Assembly: GCA_039196715.1 (NCBI GenBank)
Contig: JBCCUP010000039.1
Span: forward strand, 1-41,669
Reading direction: 5' to 3'
Source: Pseudomonadota bacterium
GTDB lineage: Bacteria; Pseudomonadota; Gammaproteobacteria; CALCKW01
Length of the DNA stretch: 41,669 nt
Below, piece by piece: positions 13,144-26,237 of this stretch. Within the stretch, counting starts at the first letter, position 1, and each line of letters starts with the position of its first letter. Below the pieces are notes generated by a model. That model searched no databases. It was not told where the DNA came from and worked only from the letters and a program-made list of their open reading frames with translations. Both the position numbers and the translations under genes were made by a program.

Positions 13144-14439
13144 ATGAGCACATCCAAATCGACTGCCGCCGACATCTCGCGACGCGGCTTTCTGACCACG
13201 GCCGGCACGTCGGCGCTGGCCTTGGCGACCGGCGCGTCGCTGGGACACTACGTCCAGGCCCAGAGCGCCGAACCCATCCGTATCGGCTTTCAGCAACACA
13301 GCACCGGCATCGGCGCGGCCTACGGGCGCTGGTACGGTCGCACCAGCGAGGCCGCCGTGGCTGCGATCAACGAGATGGGGGGCATCAACGGCCGCCCGGT
13401 CGAGCTGGTCGCCGAGGACGACGGCACCGACCCCAAACGCGGCGCTGAGGTGGTCGAGAAATTTGCCAAGCAGCGCAACTGCGACGTGGGCTTCGGCACC
13501 CTGTTCAGTCACGTCGTCATCGGCTCGGCACCGCGCGCGGGCGAGCTGAAGCTGCCCTACTTCGTCGTGTCCGAGGGCCACCACGTGGCGTCGGGTATGC
13601 TGAACCGCTACACCCTGCAACCGGCCATCACAGACGTGAAAAGCCAGGTTCAGGCGATGGCCCCTTACGTTGCTGACACGCTCGGCAAGAAAGTCACGAT
13701 GATCTACCCCGACTTCGCGTTCGGCCACGACCACCGCGATTACTTCTCCGCCGCAATCGAGGCGCAGGGAGGCACGGTAATCGAGAAGATCGCAATCCCG
13801 CCGACCGAGACGAGTTTCACGCGCTACTTCCCGCGCATCCCGCGCGACACCGAGGTGATCTACCACGTGATGGTCGGCCCCGCAGTGTTGACCTTCGTCA
13901 AGGAGATGGGCGAGTTCTTCGGTGGCCGCGGGCCGCAGATGTTCGGCTTCATCGACAGCCTGGAAGCCGTTGACATCCAGTCGCCGGGCCTTGAGTTTCT
14001 CGAAGGCAGCTACTTCTGGGAGGGCAACCCGCGCTACGCGCAGAGCGACCAGACCGACTTCGACAAGGCCTTCCGCGCAGCGGTCGGCGTCGACGACAAC
14101 GGCGCCTCGATCTCGGATGGCCGCGACGTGTCAACCTACGCCCACATGTTCGGCTGCTGGGAAACACTCTTCGTGATCAAGCGTGGCATGGAGGCCTGCG
14201 ACTACAAAGGCCCCGCGGACCGCGCCAAATTGATCGAAGCAGTCGAAGCGATGAGCGGCTTCGAGGAATCGATGCAGTTCCCGCAAGGCCCGAAGGTGTT
14301 CAACGGGAAGACGCACCAGGCTTTCGGCTACCAGTACATCTCGAAGGTTGAAAACGGTCGGCTCAACCGCGTGCACACCACCGGCATGGAAGACGGCTTC
14401 TACGAAGACGAAGTCGACTACACCTCGCACCCGCTCTGA
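13144..14439 (+). CDS. ABC importer substrate-binding protein (branched-chain amino acid/amide type), Tat-exported
   Basis: A 431-residue periplasmic binding protein of the HAAT (LivK-like) family. The signal peptide has the twin-arginine motif SRRGFLTTAG and a hydrophobic stretch ending near YVQAQS. The mature part begins PIRIGFQQHSTGIGAAYGR and keeps the family's NEMGGINGRPVELVAEDDGTDPKRGAEV. Ligand identity cannot be read off; it is neither a close UrtA (urea) nor a close LivK sequence by eye. The ATG at 13144 is preceded by a purine-rich GAGAG. It leads a five-gene operon of the LivKHMGF layout. Downstream MarR and nicotinamidase genes hint at a pyridine or amide substrate, which is inference. 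Confidence 0.9.
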   Translation: MSTSKSTAADISRRGFLTTAGTSALALATGASLGHYVQAQSAEPIRIGFQQHSTGIGAAYGRWYGRTSEAAVAAINEMGGINGRPVELVAEDDGTDPKRGAEVVEKFAKQRNCDVGFGTLFSHVVIGSAPRAGELKLPYFVVSEGHHVASGMLNRYTLQPAITDVKSQVQAMAPYVADTLGKKVTMIYPDFAFGHDHRDYFSAAIEAQGGTVIEKIAIPPTETSFTRYFPRIPRDTEVIYHVMVGPAVLTFVKEMGEFFGGRGPQMFGFIDSLEAVDIQSPGLEFLEGSYFWEGNPRYAQSDQTDFDKAFRAAVGVDDNGASISDGRDVSTYAHMFGCWETLFVIKRGMEACDYKGPADRAKLIEAVEAMSGFEESMQFPQGPKVFNGKTHQAFGYQYISKVENGRLNRVHTTGMEDGFYEDEVDYTSHPL

Positions 14440-14455
14440 CGTCCATCGAGCGAGG

Positions 14456-14484
14456 GTTGGCGTCGCCGAGCCGGCGGCGCCAAC
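14456..14484 (+). other. Intercistronic stem-loop after the binding-protein gene
   Basis: GTTGGCGTCGCC (14456-14467) pairs with GGCGGCGCCAAC (14473-14484), with one mismatch and a short loop. There is no T-run, so it is not a standard terminator. Such hairpins after a binding-protein gene are known to protect the upstream message and raise binding protein relative to permease; that role here is inference. Confidence 0.6.
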
Positions 14485-14569
14485 ACCCAAGCGCTGTAGC
14501 CGCCCTTCAACCTGTCCCATCCGCCGTTTTGAGCTCATGGCGCGACGACGATAGCTGGACACGCCCCTG

Positions 14570-15499
14570 ATGGAACTTGGACCGCACCTGGTTCTCGCGC
14601 TGCTCGAAAGTGCCGTGTCGACGGCCGTGCTTGCGCTGACCGCCATCGGGCTGGCACTGGTGTTCGGCATCATGCGCGTGGTCAATGTGGCGCACGGCGA
14701 ATTCTTCATGCTCGGCGCCGTGTTCGCCTGGTGGATCGCCGACACGCTCACCGGCTGGTCGCCGGCCGTCGGCTTCGTGCTGGCGCTGCTGTTCAGCCCG
14801 GTGATCGTCGGCGCCGTGGCCTACGCCTCCGATCGCATCGTGATCAGCCGCGTGCAGTACGACCCCGAGCGCACCATCGTCGCCACCGTCGGCCTGCTCT
14901 ACATCTTTCAACAGGTCTCGTTGATGACCTTCGGCCCCGATGCGCGGCCGGTCGAGCCGCCGTTCAACACGCGACTCGCGATCCCGTGGTTCGAACACAC
15001 CGAGTCCGGTTGGAGCATCTACTGGCCCTGGGGGCTCAGCATCACCAGCTACAAACTGGCAGTGATCGCGACCGCGGTTGTGCTCCTGATCGGCGTGTGG
15101 CTCGTGCTGACACGGACCAAGCTTGGCTTGATCATGCGGGCGACACAGCAGGACAAGGACATCGCCCAGGCGTTCGGCATCCGCATCGAACGCGTGTATG
15201 CCCTGGTGTTTGCCAGTGGCGGTGCACTCGCCGCGCTCGGTGCGGTCTTGATCGTGCCGATCCAGCAAGCCCACTACCTGATGGGCGGCGACCCCTTGCT
15301 GCTGTCGTTCATCGTCGTGATTCTCGGTGGGCTCGGGAGCCTCTCGGGCACCCTGCTCGCCGCGGCCATCATCGGCCTGGGCAATGGCATGATCGCGGTG
15401 TTTTTCTCCCCCACGCTGGCCAAGATCCTGGCCACGTTGTTGGTCGCCATGGTGCTGATCTGGCGCCCGCACGGGTTGTTCGCGAGGGCGAGCCGATGA
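14570..15499 (+). CDS. ABC importer permease, LivH type
   Basis: Inner-membrane permease subunit of about 309 residues with roughly eight hydrophobic segments. The family features are clear: LTAIGLALVFGIMRVVNVAHGEFFMLGA near the N-terminus, an EAA-like cytoplasmic loop (MRATQQDKDIAQAFGIRIERVYAL) and a GGLGSLSGTLLAAAIIG segment. The ATG at 14570 lies 130 bases after the binding-protein gene, behind the stem-loop, and has a weak ribosome binding site. Its stop overlaps the next start as ATGA. Confidence 0.93.
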   Translation: MELGPHLVLALLESAVSTAVLALTAIGLALVFGIMRVVNVAHGEFFMLGAVFAWWIADTLTGWSPAVGFVLALLFSPVIVGAVAYASDRIVISRVQYDPERTIVATVGLLYIFQQVSLMTFGPDARPVEPPFNTRLAIPWFEHTESGWSIYWPWGLSITSYKLAVIATAVVLLIGVWLVLTRTKLGLIMRATQQDKDIAQAFGIRIERVYALVFASGGALAALGAVLIVPIQQAHYLMGGDPLLLSFIVVILGGLGSLSGTLLAAAIIGLGNGMIAVFFSPTLAKILATLLVAMVLIWRPHGLFARASR

Positions 15500-16437
15500 A
15501 CTCGCGCCGCTCAGTCGTGTTCACCGTGGGCACGTTGCTCGCACTGTTCGCGCTGGTCATGCTCCTGCCCGAATACCACCAGGGCAACTTCGCCCGCATC
15601 ATGGTGCTCGCCTGCTTCGCGTGCGCCTACAACATCACCTTCGGCTACACCGGCCTGTTGAGCCTCGGACACGCGATGTTCTTTGCCGCCGGCCTGTACG
15701 GTCTGGGGCTTGGCGTGCAGGTCTGGGGCGCGTCCGCCGGCGGCGGGCTGGTGCTTGGCCTGCTCTGCGGACTCGGCTTGTCGCTGGCGGTTGGCCTGTT
15801 GGCCCTGCGCACCACAGGTGTCTCGTTCATGATCGTGACGCTGATGTTCTCGCAGGCGTTTTTCCTCACCGTCCTGCTGTTTGGCGAGTACACGCGCGGC
15901 GACGAGGGCTTCGTGATCGCGCGCGAACGCCGGCAGTTGTTCGGCGTCGACTTGTCGAACGACGGCACCCGCGTGGTGTGCGCCTGGCTGCTGCTGAGTG
16001 TGTGTGTGCTGCTCTGCCAATGGTGTGTTCGCAGCCGACTCGGCAAGGTGCTGATTGCGATCCGCGAAAACGAGGAGCGGACCCGCATGTTGGGTTACGA
16101 CGTGTTCCGCGCCAAACTCCACGCGGTGTGCATCTCCGGCACGCTCTCGGCGCTTGCAGGTGCGGCCTACGCCCTCCTGTTCGGCTACGCCGGCGCCACC
16201 TTCGCGTCGGTGCAATACTCGATCTTTCCACTGTTGTGGGTGTTGCTCGGCGGCGCCGGCACCCTGCTCGGGCCACTGGTCGGCACCACGCTGATGTTCT
16301 ACCTGATCGACATCAGCAGCGGGCTGACATCGGCCTACATGCTGATCGCCGGCGTGACGCTCGTGCTGCTCACCCTGTTCGTGCCCGAGGGTATCGTCGG
16401 CACGTTGCGTCGGCGCGTCGCCCCGTGGATTCAGTGA
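15496..16437 (+). CDS. ABC importer permease, LivM type
   Basis: Second permease subunit, 313 residues. It shows the LivM signatures NITFGYTGLLSLGHAMFFAAGLYG, the loop IRENEERTRMLGYDVFRAKL and the segment LLGGAGTLLGPLVGTTLMFYL. It has about nine membrane helices. The ATG at 15496 overlaps the LivH-type stop by four bases, so the two permeases are made in equal amounts. The next ATPase gene starts 10 bases downstream. Confidence 0.93.
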   Translation: MNSRRSVVFTVGTLLALFALVMLLPEYHQGNFARIMVLACFACAYNITFGYTGLLSLGHAMFFAAGLYGLGLGVQVWGASAGGGLVLGLLCGLGLSLAVGLLALRTTGVSFMIVTLMFSQAFFLTVLLFGEYTRGDEGFVIARERRQLFGVDLSNDGTRVVCAWLLLSVCVLLCQWCVRSRLGKVLIAIRENEERTRMLGYDVFRAKLHAVCISGTLSALAGAAYALLFGYAGATFASVQYSIFPLLWVLLGGAGTLLGPLVGTTLMFYLIDISSGLTSAYMLIAGVTLVLLTLFVPEGIVGTLRRRVAPWIQ

Positions 16438-16447
16438 GACCCTGACG

Positions 16448-17155
16448 ATGGCATTGCTTGAAGCCCGGGGATTGAACAAAGCCTTTGGCGGCCTCAGGGC
16501 CACCGACAACGTCGACCTGTCGGTCGAGCCCGGCACGATCCACGCGCTGATTGGCCCGAACGGCGCAGGCAAATCCACGCTGGTCAATCAGTTGAGCGGG
16601 CGCATCGCGCCCGACAGCGGTACCGTGCACCTGCAGGGCGACGACATCACCCACCTGCCCGCGCACCAACGCGTCCAGCGCGGCTTAGCCTACACCTTTC
16701 AGATCACCTCGGTGTTCCCTAACATGACGCTCGCCGCCAACGTCGAGATCGCCGCCCTGGTGCACCAGCCCGACGACCGGGCCGTCGAGGCCGCCGTGTT
16801 CAAGGCGCTGGACACGGTCGGGTTGCTCGAGCGACGCGACCAGCTCGCCGGCGACCTCGCCTACGGGCACCAGCGCCTGCTCGAGATCGCACTCGGCATC
16901 GTGCAGGAACCGGCACTGCTGATTCTCGACGAGCCGACGCAGGGCCTCGGCGACGCCGAAGTGGCGTGGTTTGTCGACTTGCTGAAGCAGCTCCGCGGCG
17001 ACACCACGCTGCTGCTGATCGAGCACAATATGGACGTTGTCATGGCCTGCGCAGACACGATCACGGTGTTGCAATTCGGCGCCGTGATCGCCAGCGGTGA
17101 TCCGGCGAGCATTCAATCCAACGACGCTGTACAGGCAGCGTACCTCGGAGGCTGA
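16448..17155 (+). CDS. ABC importer ATP-binding protein, LivG type
   Basis: ATPase subunit of 235 residues. Walker A is GPNGAGKST, Walker B is LLILDEPTQGLG, and the switch histidine is in LLIEHNMDVV. The signature motif reads LAYGHQRLLEIA instead of the standard LSGGQ, a change usual in the LivG branch. GLAYTFQITSVFPNMT is the Q-loop. It pairs with the LivF-type ATPase whose GTG begins one base after this stop. Confidence 0.94.
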   Translation: MALLEARGLNKAFGGLRATDNVDLSVEPGTIHALIGPNGAGKSTLVNQLSGRIAPDSGTVHLQGDDITHLPAHQRVQRGLAYTFQITSVFPNMTLAANVEIAALVHQPDDRAVEAAVFKALDTVGLLERRDQLAGDLAYGHQRLLEIALGIVQEPALLILDEPTQGLGDAEVAWFVDLLKQLRGDTTLLLIEHNMDVVMACADTITVLQFGAVIASGDPASIQSNDAVQAAYLGG

Positions 17156-17156
17156 G

Positions 17157-17852
17157 GTGTTGACGCTCGACGGTATCGCCGCGGCCTACGGTCGCGTCCG
17201 GGTGTTGCACGACGTGTCGGTGGCGCTGGACGCCGGCGAAGTCGTCTGTGTGCTCGGCCGCAACGGTGCTGGTAAGACGTCGACGATGAAAGCCATCATG
17301 GGTCTGCTGCCGCTGGTCGACGGTGCGATCTCGGTCGATGGCACGCGCATGGACACGCTCTCGGCCGATCAGGTGGTACAACACCGAGTCGCCTACACAC
17401 CGCAGGGACGGCGTCTCTTCCCGGAACTCACGGTGCGCGAGAACCTCGAGATCGGCCTGATGGCGCGCAAGCGGGATGCCGACACACTCGATTGGGTGCT
17501 CGAGCTGTTCCCGCAGCTGAGCGAACGTCTCGATCAGCTGGCCAACACGCTGTCGGGCGGCGAGCAGCAGATGGCTGCGATCGGCCGGGCTCTGTGCACC
17601 CAGCCTCGCTACCTGTTGCTTGACGAGCCCACCGAGGGCCTGCAACCGTCGATGGTGGCGCTGATCCGCGACGTGGTGAAACAGCTTGCCGGTGAAGGCG
17701 TCGGCATCCTGATGGTGGAGCAGCGCTTCGACGCGGTCCTGACCACTGCCGACCGCGTCGTGTTCATCGAGAACGGCTACAGCCGTGACACCGTCGACGC
17801 TTCAGTCTTGCAGAACGACCGCTCCCTGCTCGACACCTATCTCGGCGTCTGA
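17157..17852 (+). CDS. ABC importer ATP-binding protein, LivF type
   Basis: Second ATPase, 231 residues. Walker A is GRNGAGKTS, the Q-loop is AYTPQGRRLFPELTV, the signature is the standard LSGGEQQ, and Walker B is YLLLDEPTEGL. The GTG at 17157 has GGAGG five bases upstream and follows the LivG-type stop by one base; the longer open frame into that gene is a shadow. It closes the importer operon. The MarR gene follows after about 107 bases on the same strand. Confidence 0.94.
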   Translation: MLTLDGIAAAYGRVRVLHDVSVALDAGEVVCVLGRNGAGKTSTMKAIMGLLPLVDGAISVDGTRMDTLSADQVVQHRVAYTPQGRRLFPELTVRENLEIGLMARKRDADTLDWVLELFPQLSERLDQLANTLSGGEQQMAAIGRALCTQPRYLLLDEPTEGLQPSMVALIRDVVKQLAGEGVGILMVEQRFDAVLTTADRVVFIENGYSRDTVDASVLQNDRSLLDTYLGV

Positions 17853-17959
17853 GTCGCAGCGTCGAACAGGTTTTCGGTTTGTCAATAATGCCCACCGCAC
17901 ACCCTGCGAGTCCGGCTGCGACCGTATACTGTCGCCCTCGGATCTTCGGCGCGCGCACC

Positions 17960-18376
17960 ATGAGCGGAAGCTACCTACTCGACGAGCAAATCGGCTTTGC
18001 ACTCCGACTGGCGGGTCAGCGGCACACCGCGATTTTCCAGGAGATAATCGAGGATGAACTGACGCCCACTCAATTCTCGACGCTGATCCGTTTGAGTGAA
18101 GTCGGTGCCAGCTCGCAGAACCACTTGGGGCGCCTGGTGGGTATGGACGTCGCCACGACCAAAGGTGTGGTAGACCGCTTGCGCAAAAAGAACCTGATCT
18201 CGAGTGTCGTCGACGAGACCGACGTGCGCCGCCGGAAGATTCAACTCACGGACGAGGGCGCGGTGCTGGTCAATCGACTCAAACGGCGCGGCAAGGAAAT
18301 CACCCGCCAAACGCTCGAGCCGCTCGACAACAGTGAGCGGGCCACCTTACTCGCGCTGCTGAAGAAGATCTCCTGA
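17960..18376 (+). CDS. MarR family transcriptional regulator
   Basis: A 138-residue winged-helix dimer of the MarR family. The core SQNHLGRLVGMDVATTKGVVDRLRKKNLISSVVDETDVRRRKIQLTDEG is complete, with the wing at DETDVRRRK. The N-terminal LLDEQIGFALRLAGQRHTAIF and LTPTQFSTLIRL recall the branch that includes NicR, the nicotinate-catabolism repressor, but this is a judgement from memory of the family. It lies between the importer operon and a convergent nicotinamidase gene, so it probably represses one or both. A palindrome of MarR-operator style is at 19412-19427. Confidence 0.9.
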   Translation: MSGSYLLDEQIGFALRLAGQRHTAIFQEIIEDELTPTQFSTLIRLSEVGASSQNHLGRLVGMDVATTKGVVDRLRKKNLISSVVDETDVRRRKIQLTDEGAVLVNRLKRRGKEITRQTLEPLDNSERATLLALLKKIS

Positions 18377-18510
18377 ACCCGTTGCCGTCTGCTGTTGACC
18401 GGCTGGTGATCCGCCTCCCCCGGTACAGAGACGGTGGCGTGTCAGACCGTATCTGGCTGCGCTGCCCGCTGACTGAACGCCGGTCGGATCTTGCGATCGG
18501 GACACGACAG

Positions 18511-19113
18511 TCAGATGACCGAAACACCTGCTTGATGCATCTGCACGGTGGCACTGGCCAGCGTTTCGCCGTTCATGTCGATGGCACGGCAAGCGCTGGT
18601 TCGCACAGTGACCGCGTAGCCCAACCGAGCCGCATCGAGCGCCGAGTAGGCGACACAGAAATCCGTCGCGAGGCCCACCATCACCAACGACGACACCGAA
18701 CGCTCCTGCAAGAAGCCGTGCAGACCGGTCGGCGTGCGTTTGTCGTTTTCGAAGAAGGCTGAATAGCTGTCGATCGCAGGGTTGCTGCCCTTGCGGATGA
18801 TGGCCCCGACACGGTCGAGGTCGAGTCCGGCGTGAAACGCCGCGCCCTCCGTTCCGATCACGCAGTGGTCAGGCCAGAGCACCTGTTCGCCGTAAAAAAG
18901 CGTGGTCGTCGAGAACGGGTCGGCACCGTGGCTGCTGGCAAAGGAGCCGTGGCCTGCCGGATGCCAGTCCTGGGTCGCTACCACGGTTGCATAGTCCGCC
19001 TGCAGACTGTTGATCTCGTCGACGATCTCGTCGCCACCGGCCACGGCCAATGCGCCGCCCGGACAGAAATCGTTTTGCATATCCACAATGATCAACGCCG
19101 TATGTTCCGTCAT
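18511..19113 (-). CDS. pncA: Nicotinamidase (pyrazinamidase)
   Basis: Hydrolyses nicotinamide to nicotinate and ammonia for NAD salvage. The 200-residue protein has the full isochorismatase-fold active site: Asp11 (VDMQNDF), Lys108 (IRKGSN) and Cys153 (ATDFCVAYSA). The metal site DWHPAGH (Asp49, His51, His55) is also present. The ATG at 19113 is preceded by 390 bases without a gene on this strand. It is convergent with the MarR gene, and a possible operator lies about 300 bases upstream of its start. Confidence 0.95.
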   Translation of the reverse strand: MTEHTALIIVDMQNDFCPGGALAVAGGDEIVDEINSLQADYATVVATQDWHPAGHGSFASSHGADPFSTTTLFYGEQVLWPDHCVIGTEGAAFHAGLDLDRVGAIIRKGSNPAIDSYSAFFENDKRTPTGLHGFLQERSVSSLVMVGLATDFCVAYSALDAARLGYAVTVRTSACRAIDMNGETLASATVQMHQAGVSVI

Positions 19114-19503
19114 GACGCACTCAACCTTTGCTCTGTCGTGTCCGCATTCTGCTGGACCCGGGTGGATTCAGCGGTGCACACGGCGCACCGCGCCCTGTCA
19201 CCGCGCCGAGCACCAACGCAGTCCGTGCTCGCCCTTCACCCAAGCGGCGTCGAGGCCACCGACCCGGAGCCGCGGCCGGACGCTGTCGATCACCGCCACG
19301 GCCTTGCGCATCGGAGCTGAGGCCGCCCTGTCCCCGTCGCGTTCGCTGATCTCGTCACTGCCCCAGGTTTTCGGAAGTCCACTCTCATCACGACAATCCG
19401 CACAGCTTTATCGTTAGTAAGCTAACGTAACAGCGAACCCGCAGGGTGTCAAGGCAGCCCGCCGAACGCACCTGGCCTGTGGCCGCTCTGCGCGTGGCCA
19501 GGT
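19114..19503. other. Intergenic region between pncA and leuS
   Basis: About 390 bases without a convincing gene. The only minus-strand candidate is a 37-codon frame from an ATG near 19310, which resembles nothing I know. The 5' part holds the MarR-like palindrome and a -10-like GATAAA abutting it. The edge next to leuS holds an inverted repeat (ACCTGGCC at about 19470 with GGCCAGGT at about 19494) that could fold downstream of the leuS stop but lacks a T-run. Confidence 0.55.
19412..19427. promoter_or_regulatory. MarR-type operator palindrome
   Basis: CGTTAGTAAGCTAACG is an inverted repeat with six-base arms and a four-base centre, in the style of MarR-family operators. On the minus strand GATAAA (19407-19412) abuts it as a possible -10, so a bound dimer would block transcription toward pncA. 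I did not find a second copy upstream of the importer operon or the MarR gene. Confidence 0.55.
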
Positions 19504-22095
19504 CTAGCCGACGACGATATTGACCAGCCGACCCTTCACGACAATGACCTTGCGCACCGTCTTGCCCTCGAGGTGGCGTTGCACCCCCTCCTCGGCCTTG
19601 GCGGTCTGCTCGATGGTGTCGTTGTCGGTGTCAGTGGGCACTTCGATCTGCCCACGCACCTTGCCGTTGACCTGCACAACCATGCTGACCGTGTCGGCCA
19701 CGAGCGCCGATTCGTCGGCTTCGGGCCACGCGATGTCCACCGCTGCGCCCTCGCCGCCGATGGCCGGCCACAGCGCGTGAGCGGTGTGCGGTGTGATCGG
19801 CGACAGCAGTGCGACGGCCGTTTGCAGAGCCTCGCGCACGACCGCGTGGGCCTGGGCGCCCTCGCCCTTGAAGCGCCCGATCTCGTTGACCAGCTCCATG
19901 ACGGCGGCAATCGCGGTGTTGAAGGTGTAGCGTCGGCCGATGTCGTCGGACACTTTCTTGATGGTGCTGTGCGTCTTTGCGCGCAAAGCCCTGTCGTCGT
20001 CCGAACACAGGTTGACGTCGAGCGCAGCCACCGGCTGCTCCCCGCCCTCTGTCACATGGTTGTGCACCGCCCGCCAGAGCCGCTTGATGAACCGGTGCAT
20101 GCCCTCCACGCCCGCTTCTTTCCATTCGAGCGATTGGTCCGGGGGCGAGGCAAACATGGTGAAGAGCCGTACGGTGTCGGCGCCATAGCGGTCGATCATC
20201 TCCTGCGGGTCAACGCCATTGTTCTTCGACTTCGACATCTTCTGGATCTTGCCCACGGTGACCGCGTCACCGTCTTCGAGCAAGGTCGCGCCGACGATGG
20301 CACCACGGCTGTCGCGTGACAACGCCACTTCGTTCGGCGCGAAGTAGGTCTTCTTGCCAGCCGTGTCCTCGCGGTAGAAGGTTTCGGACACCACCATACC
20401 CTGTGGCAGGTAGCGCAAGGCCGGTTCGTCGGAATCAACCAGACCCATGTCTCGCATGAGTTTGTGGAAGTAGCGGAAGTACAGCAGGTGCATCACCGCG
20501 TGCTCGATACCACCGATGTACTGGTCGATCGAAAGCCAGTGGTTCGCGCGCTCGTCGAGCATCCCGTTGGCACCGGGACAACAATAGCGGGCGTAGTACC
20601 AGCTCGACTGAAAGAAGGTGTCGAAGGTGTCGGTTTCGCGGCGGCCCGGCGTGCCGTCGGGCAGCGTGGCACCGAGAAAGGCCTCGTCCTTCTGCAGCGG
20701 CGAGGTCACACCCTCGAAGTGCACGTCTTCGGGCAAGACCACCGGCAAGTCTTCCGCCGGCACCGGGTAGGCTTCGCCCGCCGCGTCGTACACGACCGGG
20801 ATCGGCGTGCCCCAATAGCGCTGGCGTGACACCAGCCAATCGCGCATGCGGTAGTTGACCTTGCGCTCGCCGTTGGCGTGTTCCACAAGGTAGTCCGCGG
20901 TCGCCGCGAGGGCGGCGTCGTGGTCCAGTCCGTCGAACGCGCCGGAGTTGACCAGCACCGTGTCACCCTTGGTGATAAAGGCCTCGTCTTCCACGTTCAC
21001 CGAGCCGTCGGCCGCATCGACCACCTGCACGATCGGGATGCCGTACGTGCGGGCAAAGTCGTGGTCGCGCTGGTCGTGCCCGGGCACCCCCATCACGGCA
21101 CCGCCACCGTAGCTCATCAACACGTAGTTGCCGACCCAGACCGGCACCGGTTGGCCGGACACCGGGTGTGTCACATCGACTCCCAGTGCCATGCCTTTCT
21201 TTTCCAGTTTTTCGATCACCGCCTCTGATGTGCCGGTGCGCTTGCACTCGGCAATGAACGCGGCCACGGCCGGGTTCTGCTCGGCGACCGCCTGGGCAAC
21301 CGGGTGCTCGGCGGCCACCGCCATGAAGGTGACACCCATGATGGTGTCGGGGCGGGTCGTGTAGACGCGCACGGTAGCGTCCTGCGCCGGCAGGGACCAA
21401 TCGAACTCGACGCCTTCGGAACGGCCGATCCAGTTGCGCTGCATCGTCTTGACCATGTCGGGCCAATCGATCGTGTCGAGTCCGTCGAGCAGTTCCTGTG
21501 CGTAATCGGTGATGCGCAGGTACCACTGGGCAATCTCGCGGCGCTCGACCGGGTTGCCACAGCGCCAGCAGCAGCCGTCCTCGACCTGCTCGTTGGCAAG
21601 CACGGTCTGGTCGGTCTCGCACCAATTCACCTCACCGTTCTTGCGGTAGGCGTCTCCCCGCTTGAGCAGCTCGGTGAAGAACCATTGCTCCCAGCGGTAG
21701 TAGTCGGGTTTGCAGGTGGTGACCTCGCGCGCCCAGTCGAAACCGAAACCGAGTGCCTGCATCTGCTGCTTCATGTAGTCGATGTTGGCGTAGGTCCACT
21801 CGGCGGGCTGTCGGCCCCGCTCGATGGCGGCGTTCTCTGCCGGCATGCCGAACGCGTCCCAGCCCATCGGCTGGAGCACGTTGTAGCCGTTCATCCGACG
21901 GTACCGGCTGATGACGTCGCCGATGGTGTAGTTGCGGACGTGGCCCATGTGCAGCTTGCCGCTGGGATAGGGCAACATGCTCAGGCAATAGTACTTCGGC
22001 TTGTTCGAGTCCTCGCTGACGGCGAAGGACGCGTGGGTGTGCCAGTAGGCCTGCGCGTCGCGCTCGACCGCGCGGACGTTGATTTCGGCTTGCAT
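19504..22095 (-). CDS. leuS: Leucyl-tRNA synthetase
   Basis: Class I aminoacyl-tRNA synthetase charging tRNA-Leu. At 863 residues it matches the bacterial length (E. coli 860). The HIGH motif is HMGH at residues 49-52 (LPYPSGKLHMGHVRNY) and the second motif is KMSKSKNNG. The CP1 editing domain carries VYTTRPDTIMGVT and GVPGHDQRDHDFA, so proofreading of mischarged tRNA should be intact. Four cysteines of a zinc knuckle are in the CCWRCG region. It lies 80 bases after ubiH; no clear ribosome binding site is seen at the ATG. Confidence 0.98.
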   Translation of the reverse strand: MQAEINVRAVERDAQAYWHTHASFAVSEDSNKPKYYCLSMLPYPSGKLHMGHVRNYTIGDVISRYRRMNGYNVLQPMGWDAFGMPAENAAIERGRQPAEWTYANIDYMKQQMQALGFGFDWAREVTTCKPDYYRWEQWFFTELLKRGDAYRKNGEVNWCETDQTVLANEQVEDGCCWRCGNPVERREIAQWYLRITDYAQELLDGLDTIDWPDMVKTMQRNWIGRSEGVEFDWSLPAQDATVRVYTTRPDTIMGVTFMAVAAEHPVAQAVAEQNPAVAAFIAECKRTGTSEAVIEKLEKKGMALGVDVTHPVSGQPVPVWVGNYVLMSYGGGAVMGVPGHDQRDHDFARTYGIPIVQVVDAADGSVNVEDEAFITKGDTVLVNSGAFDGLDHDAALAATADYLVEHANGERKVNYRMRDWLVSRQRYWGTPIPVVYDAAGEAYPVPAEDLPVVLPEDVHFEGVTSPLQKDEAFLGATLPDGTPGRRETDTFDTFFQSSWYYARYCCPGANGMLDERANHWLSIDQYIGGIEHAVMHLLYFRYFHKLMRDMGLVDSDEPALRYLPQGMVVSETFYREDTAGKKTYFAPNEVALSRDSRGAIVGATLLEDGDAVTVGKIQKMSKSKNNGVDPQEMIDRYGADTVRLFTMFASPPDQSLEWKEAGVEGMHRFIKRLWRAVHNHVTEGGEQPVAALDVNLCSDDDRALRAKTHSTIKKVSDDIGRRYTFNTAIAAVMELVNEIGRFKGEGAQAHAVVREALQTAVALLSPITPHTAHALWPAIGGEGAAVDIAWPEADESALVADTVSMVVQVNGKVRGQIEVPTDTDNDTIEQTAKAEEGVQRHLEGKTVRKVIVVKGRLVNIVVG

Positions 22096-26050: not shown

Positions 26051-26237
26051 AGGACACCCCCTGGTGAATCACGGTCGGCTGGGTATACCCTTGAGCCTTA
26101 ATTCACTACCCAGGGAAGCAGTGTGCGACTGACAGTGAGCACGTCCGCCACGGCGGAAAGCCTAAATCAGTCCCTTCGCCTCCCACCTGAACCGTATGGT
26201 TCAAGGTTTTTTGGCCGACTGCACCAGGGGTGTGTCC
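26051..26237 (+). ncRNA. ssrS: 6S RNA
   Basis: The RNA that binds and inhibits sigma-70 RNA polymerase in stationary phase. A closing stem pairs GGACACCCCCTGGTG (from 26052) with CACCAGGGGTGTGTCC (ending 26237), giving about 187 bases (E. coli 184). Inside, the conserved blocks are visible: CCCTTGAGCC, TTCACTACC, GTGAGCACG with a CGCCACGGCGG hairpin followed by AAGCCT, and the CACCTGAACC / GGTTCAAGG arm. A -10 (TACTAT, 26037-26042) puts the start near 26050. Position after zapA is conserved. Ends are set by the stem and may be off by a few bases. Confidence 0.92.

Follow-up and report, generated by a model that had tools for sequence, protein, structure and literature searches.

A putative nicotinate importer, a MarR regulator and a nicotinamidase as a candidate niacin-salvage unit of probable catabolic-cluster origin

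The 41,669-nucleotide stretch of contig JBCCUP010000039.1 analysed here (the window) carries, between crp and leuS, an ATP-binding cassette (ABC) importer of the HAAT type, a marR regulator gene and pncA, which encodes a nicotinamidase. We consider it probable that this importer takes up nicotinate (possibly nicotinamide or a close pyridine carboxylate), that it originated in a nicotinate-degradation cluster and that it has been cut down to a niacin-salvage module. A further step is proposed more tentatively, at somewhat less than even odds in our judgement: the importer, the MarR and the promoter/operator of the lost operon may have been retained and rewired to pncA, giving a dedicated unit for vitamin B3 salvage in a lineage without quinolinate-route synthesis of nicotinamide adenine dinucleotide (NAD). 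An initial annotation of the window had suggested a possible pyridine or amide uptake unit, and the core of that idea is upheld and extended here. Its suggested cargo, nicotinate or nicotinamide, draws sequence-level support from gene neighbourhood and genome co-occurrence, from the residues of the regulator and from an operator-like sequence shared with a catabolic promoter; a pyridine carboxylate appears more likely than an amide.

In the scenario that we favour, the importer would formerly have belonged to a nicotinate-degradation gene cluster such as those of its relatives, in which a molybdenum enzyme would hydroxylate the imported nicotinate, 6-hydroxynicotinate reductase (HNR) would reduce the product and enamidase would open it. 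In the genome of the window (G000; 96.2% complete, 169 contigs) the catabolic genes would be gone, with importer, MarR and nicotinamidase retained. Nicotinate would then enter via the importer, PncA would deamidate nicotinamide, nicotinate phosphoribosyltransferase would channel nicotinate to NAD, and the MarR would act at a palindrome before pncA.

Gene neighbourhoods link the importer to nicotinate catabolism

Of 382 relatives of the binding protein recovered in a contig search, the best 80 (74–86% identity), mostly from Rhodobacterales and from metagenome-assembled genomes (MAGs) labelled Granulosicoccaceae, were used for the neighbourhood counts. The relatives' reading frames were clustered, one representative per cluster was searched for families, and gene presence was tabulated with at most six sampled queries per family at fixed bit thresholds. 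Recurrent neighbours encode a xanthine-dehydrogenase-family molybdenum protein and its flavin adenine dinucleotide (FAD) subunit, a 493-residue protein, UPF0280, AA_synth (PF06684), an amidohydrolase, hydantoinase A/B and a MarR, joined in some loci by PncA. The neighbouring amidohydrolase of a relative matches the enamidase structure 2VUN (E 3.6e-105), and the 493-residue protein is annotated as HNR in many public plasmid records, as "hypothetical protein" or not at all in others. No Pfam or NCBIfam model names either HNR or enamidase, and the copies in the same-genus genome G003 lack an NCBIfam match; HNR is therefore named here via public annotation and the cluster account in PMC3511419, and enamidase via 2VUN. 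These names reflect annotation and not assays.

Many close relatives of the importer adjoin nicotinate hydroxylase or HNR genes. Six core genes were considered (those for the molybdenum hydroxylase and its FAD subunit, HNR, enamidase, AA_synth and UPF0280), and 51 of the 80 loci have one or more of them in their flanks, as do 42 of the 60 loci that span at least 20 kb. Counted singly in the fetched flanks, HNR is present in 42/80, MarR in 31/80, enamidase in 15/80 and PncA in 6/80. HNR is found elsewhere in the genome for 20 of the 29 relatives that lack a local core gene, and in Neorhizobium NCHU2750 the importer adjoins genes annotated nicA, nicB and hnr. Co-occurrence of binding protein, MarR and pncA, which the initial annotation had named as a check on its proposal, is seen in a minority of relatives and not generally, since pncA accompanies only those six loci. 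The counts support a link of the binding protein to nicotinate catabolism generally rather than to pncA specifically.

The association is also visible at the level of whole genomes. We drew 150 genomes (minimum completeness 90) from the family of the Roseovarius pacificus genome G110, itself a carrier of the binding protein, with matches accepted at E up to 1e-120 for the binding protein and up to 1e-80 for HNR; the two draws had the same settings and are taken as the same genomes, their handles agreeing among the matches listed. The binding protein occurs in 44 of these genomes and HNR in 63, with both in 37, the binding protein only in 7, HNR only in 26 and neither in 80 (Fisher P 1.2e-11, relatedness ignored). 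Both are encoded on the same contig in 23 of the 37, and within 15 kb of each other in 18 of those 23. Among 12 plasmid records with the binding protein, 10 (several of these ten being near-copies) carry HNR less than 10 kb away (start to start), compared with 26 of 72,556 plasmid records overall. The two exceptions without HNR are Rhizobium SSA_523, which is unannotated, and Sagittula P11, where the binding protein shares 61% identity with that of the window. In a tree rooted on these two, which stand together at 97, the window and the G003 locus L009 pair at 100, within a part made up mainly of rows with nicotinate genes adjacent or elsewhere; many inner forks are weakly supported.

Two side observations concern the binding protein's surroundings among relatives. 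In 77 of the 80 loci the gene directly upstream of it encodes a membrane protein of about 450–500 residues (e.g., L057:8375-9790, + strand), which was not found among the reading frames of the window. Five histidines are invariant across 31 aligned copies. One representative had no Pfam or NCBIfam match, and the profile matched no PDB sequence at E values up to 1; a PADLOC scan gave nothing, and for a confident many-helix model (predicted local distance difference test, pLDDT, 89.6) Foldseek returned nothing at E 0.001 or better. This protein may represent an uncharacterised family tied to nicotinate uptake. In 10 of the 80 loci the surroundings of the binding protein yielded no permease gene and no core gene. 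Two of those contigs (L024, L049) end soon after it; in the other eight (L020, L048, L055, L059, L060, L062, L071, L072) the contig continues, and the binding protein is an orphan preceded by the membrane protein.

Catabolic genes and NAD synthesis in the genus

Three further genomes of the same genus (G001–G003) were compared with G000. Locus L009 and the G003 contig C173 are the same contig, agreeing at all 5617 overlapping bases, so that L009 belongs to genome G003; L112 is another piece of that contig. The G003 binding protein, 86–87% identical to that of the window, is encoded about 7 kb from crp. A catabolic row on the same contig encodes a ferredoxin, a ferredoxin-NADP-reductase-like protein, the FAD subunit, the molybdenum protein, HNR, UPF0280, two AA_synth proteins, PncA and enamidase, and the importer and MarR lie beyond it. 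The window's PncA is 71% identical to the PncA inside this row, and its LivH-type permease is 87.7% identical to the L009 copy. The G003 contig has no match to leuS in its first 1.7 kb, which leaves the leuS side of this comparison open. As a side observation, G003 carries a second HAAT operon with a Rieske oxygenase (Rieske, VanA_C) between crp and marR (L009:3229-8983); it is conceivable, as speculation, that this enzyme is a demethylase yielding nicotinate, for example from trigonelline.

HNR, enamidase and hydroxylase are all present in G002 and G003; in G002 they lie on three contigs, and the enamidase match contains two internal stop codons. G001 (79% complete) has HNR and hydroxylase, with enamidase unmatched. 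The G000 assembly, itself incomplete, showed no match to HNR (E 1e-5) or enamidase (E 1e-10), and its hydroxylase-family members are only 29–30% identical, so that the catabolic genes were not recovered from the same genome as the importer. G000 has one AA_synth protein, and no cluster gene was recognised in the 16 kb around its gene. Because the window is contiguous from crp to leuS, the catabolic genes are absent from this locus.

NadA (PF02445) and NadC (TIGR00078) had no match in any of the four genus genomes, whereas each was found in 12 of 14 control genomes. The kynurenine-type route to NAD also requires NadC. On these marker searches the lineage is probably a niacin auxotroph that must import the vitamin. 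The nicotinate phosphoribosyltransferase family (PF04095) has matches in all four genomes, and the G000 enzyme scores 556 bits against an equivalog cut-off of 469. With NadA and NadC not found, salvage is the likely use of the importer and pncA.

A BpsR-like regulator and a shared operator-like palindrome

The best solved relatives of the window's MarR are 2NNN, a MarR of Pseudomonas aeruginosa (E 3.5e-29), and BpsR (6PCP, E 1.3e-20). According to passages in PMC6837509, BpsR of Bordetella responds to 6-hydroxynicotinate and contacts it via Tyr15, His23, Arg26 and His32, and P. putida NicR is without these ligand residues. The window's MarR has Tyr, Phe, Arg and His at the four positions, three of the contacts being kept and His23 replaced by Phe. 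Tyr15, Arg26 and His32 are found in 31 of the 31 members of its cluster (L009 and L090 being one gene), with Phe in 24 and Tyr in 7 at position 23. In the alignment 2NNN has Tyr, Phe, Arg and Tyr at the same positions, so only His32 separates the cluster from 2NNN. The N-terminal part of the protein had been said to recall NicR; BpsR is the better comparison, given that 2NNN and BpsR are the best solved relatives and that NicR, in those same passages, lacks the BpsR ligand residues. The likeness to BpsR (6PCP/6PCO) extends to the MarR family and to Tyr15, Arg26 and His32 of the 6-hydroxynicotinate pocket; unlike BpsR, the window's MarR has Phe at position 23 and belongs to a genome in which no enzyme making 6-hydroxynicotinate was detected.

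One exact copy of the palindrome CGTTAG-TAAG-CTAACG occurs in the window, and its final base, 19427, is also the end of the block as first annotated. The palindrome was first chosen by eye in the window and tested afterwards. Exact GTTAG-N4-CTAAC sites number six in 1.61 Mb (the window and the fetched loci, the window's site counted) against 0.20 expected, and the same half-sites at other spacers of 0 to 12 occur once in total. The six sites lie before the window's pncA, before the binding protein in L009 and L067, between the enamidase and membrane-protein genes in L025, about 90 bp before the ferredoxin gene heading the G003 catabolic row (L112, 377) and just before the G002 FAD-subunit gene (L113, 8045). 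The window's site and the G003 catabolic-promoter site have 25 bp in common at 96% identity (E 1.8e-6, in a small comparison). On the simplest reading, the window's pncA would now sit behind a former catabolic promoter, and the MarR probably binds the palindrome there. A weaker operator-like site (17.4 bits) accompanies the second HAAT operon of G003, at position 9040 of L009.

Structure and export of the binding protein

The binding protein, modelled with AlphaFold (mean pLDDT 74.8), is closest in fold to 4-hydroxybenzoate and vanillate binders of Rhodopseudomonas palustris (4F06, 4EVS, 4EVQ; Z 33.4–32.8 over 351 residues), which are 17–20% identical to it in sequence; AmiC, urea and amino-acid binders come next. 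The modelled fold would fit an aromatic-acid ligand and is not decisive; the fold search singled out no single ligand class. The top PDB sequence match is the amide receptor AmiC of P. aeruginosa (1PEA/1QNL, E 5.9e-12); unlike AmiC, the window's protein is encoded alongside importer subunits. Its export by the twin-arginine translocation (Tat) system, which had been described as atypical, proves to be typical of the family: a twin-arginine pair lies within the first 95 residues of the called frame in 82 of 83 members of the binding-protein cluster, including that of the window, whose Tat signal scores 20 bits with TIGR01409 (cut-off 16.7).

Weighing the proposal against other explanations

Several results weigh against a nicotinate importer reduced to salvage. 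HNR occurs without the binding protein in 26 of the 150 family genomes, and nine of the 80 relatives' genomes (seven of them MAGs) are left with neither a local core gene nor HNR. Some importers stand in other contexts: in two MAGs labelled Granulosicoccaceae (L016:15548-17858 and L036:15490-17876) the L036 importer neighbours a type II dehydroquinase, a GFO/IDH oxidoreductase and a family 3 binding protein, L016 has the same gene clusters, and neither had an HNR match in the genome search, so the cargo there may differ. The neighbours in Sagittula P11 are a GMC oxidoreductase, an aldehyde dehydrogenase and a tannase/feruloyl-esterase-family gene. Fold matches to binders of aromatic acids, amides, urea and branched-chain amino acids are separated by only about 1–2 Z. 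Without a nicotinate hydroxylase the window's MarR would need a different inducer, and no enzyme making 6-hydroxynicotinate was detected in G000. The palindrome is present in a subset of loci; nine more sites appear at one mismatch, two of them (L071, L084) not before a cluster gene, and at up to three mismatches the window holds 4 sites against 10.3 expected, no excess over chance. In the window, neither the importer nor marR is preceded by a comparable site, the best scores there being -0.8 and -2.2, against 23.5. When 347 promoter stretches were searched blindly for 5-base dyads in common, the GTTAG palindrome did not rank (the best dyads occurred in 8, 7 and 7 loci, those of a shuffled control in at most 5), which leaves the targeted search as the support for the operator.

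The proposal that the importer has become a salvage module also has to be set against three rivals. One, which we regard as unlikely, is that it still feeds a working nicotinate-degradation pathway whose enzymes are encoded in a stretch of the genome that the assembly misses. G001–G003 have the catabolic hydroxylase and HNR, the pathway genes of G002 are scattered over three contigs, and at 96% completeness in 169 contigs the missing G000 genes may simply be unassembled. This would require, however, that HNR, enamidase and a close hydroxylase were all missed together, and the crp–leuS interval is unbroken and free of the genes whereas in G003 the pathway adjoins the importer on the crp-bearing contig. 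Less likely again is a binding protein with a different ligand, an aromatic or cyclic carboxylate resembling benzoate, quinate or trigonelline, with the nicotinate link only partial. The 4-hydroxybenzoate and vanillate folds nearest to the model agree with such a cargo, as do the contexts in L016, L036 and Sagittula P11; the co-occurrence with HNR, the presence of pncA in the unit and the operator-like site common with a catabolic promoter speak for nicotinate, and the two HNR-less plasmid rows group apart from the window, in a tree rooted on them. We think it very improbable that this is an ordinary importer of branched-chain amino acids, urea or short amides beside an ordinary pncA by chance. 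The permeases and ATPases do score best with the UrtB–E models, with Liv models next for some, and AmiC heads the PDB sequence matches of the binding protein. Yet the UrtA–E scores of 38.9, 173.5, 133.8, 201.9 and 227.2 bits all fall under the cut-offs (492.75, 250.3, 296.2, 304.1 and 285.8), no NCBIfam urea or branched-chain transport model reaches its cut-off for any importer protein, and the comparative context favours nicotinate.

Relation to described systems and implications

A "putative nicotinate ABC transporter" in HNR-type nicotinate-degradation clusters was already stated in 2012 (PMC3511419). As far as the relevant passages of that paper go, the cluster of Azorhizobium caulinodans and Bradyrhizobiaceae SG-6C has an ABC importer beside nicotinate genes including HNR, as many relatives of the window do; this is a likeness of gene arrangement, and the window differs in having no catabolic genes and in keeping pncA. 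What seems new, as far as the open-licence PubMed Central (PMC) literature shows, is the stripped-down importer accompanied by a pncA that lies downstream of the shared operator-like site, in a genome where NadA and NadC were not detected. Nothing in that literature was found to combine "6-hydroxynicotinate reductase" with "enamidase", an absence that is no proof, and a study of R. pomeroyi transporters (PMC10130141) has no occurrence of "nicotin", "HAAT", "branched-chain" or "hydroxybenzoate".

If the proposal is correct, a HAAT-type ABC transporter would serve as a vitamin importer. It offers a concrete predicted cargo and operator for an importer family that is publicly annotated as a branched-chain amino acid or unspecified ABC transporter, and many such annotations should then read nicotinate. 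Niacin degradation and niacin need could be tracked via one binding protein, and the window hints at how a degradation cluster may decay into a unit for vitamin salvage.

Gene content of the locus

The block initially annotated (binding protein, LivHMGF-type parts, MarR, convergent nicotinamidase and the crp and leuS flanks) was confirmed at its place throughout (Table 1). The importer row and marR share one strand, and pncA converges on them. A Peripla_BP_6 protein, two BPD_transp_2 permeases and two ATPases in one row make this a HAAT-type importer, and PncA scores above a curated equivalog cut-off, its best solved relative being the nicotinamidase 2WT9 (E 4.6e-60).

Table 1 Features of the locus. 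Coordinates refer to the whole 41,669-nt window; several start codons are inferred.
Feature	Position	Strand	Evidence and remarks
CRP gene	upstream of importer		NF008732 348.6 bits (cut-off 266)
Tat-exported HAAT-family substrate-binding protein, probable nicotinate binder	13144..14439	+	PF13458 (Peripla_BP_6) 171.8 bits; TIGR01409
LivH-type permease	14570..15499	+	PF02653 124.1 bits
LivM-type permease	15496..16437	+	PF02653 130 bits; start inferred, overlaps LivH stop
LivG-type ATPase	16448..17155	+	PF00005 and PF12399 above cut-off
LivF-type ATPase	17157..17852	+	PF00005 above cut-off; GTG start inferred
BpsR-like MarR regulator	17960..18376	+	PF01047 35.5 bits (cut-off 24.6); ATG start inferred
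pncA, nicotinamidase	18511..19113	-	NF008623 equivalog 235.4 bits (cut-off 174)
Operator-like palindrome CGTTAG-N4-CTAACG	19412..19427	.	about 300 bp before pncA
leuS	19504-22095	-	TIGR00396 1105.6 bits (cut-off 548.4)

Scans for sigma-70 promoters and terminators gave nothing beyond chance. No riboswitch was found before pncA in an Rfam scan of the window, the sole match being a 6S RNA elsewhere (26074-26222, + strand; 51.9 bits against a gathering score of 46.4).

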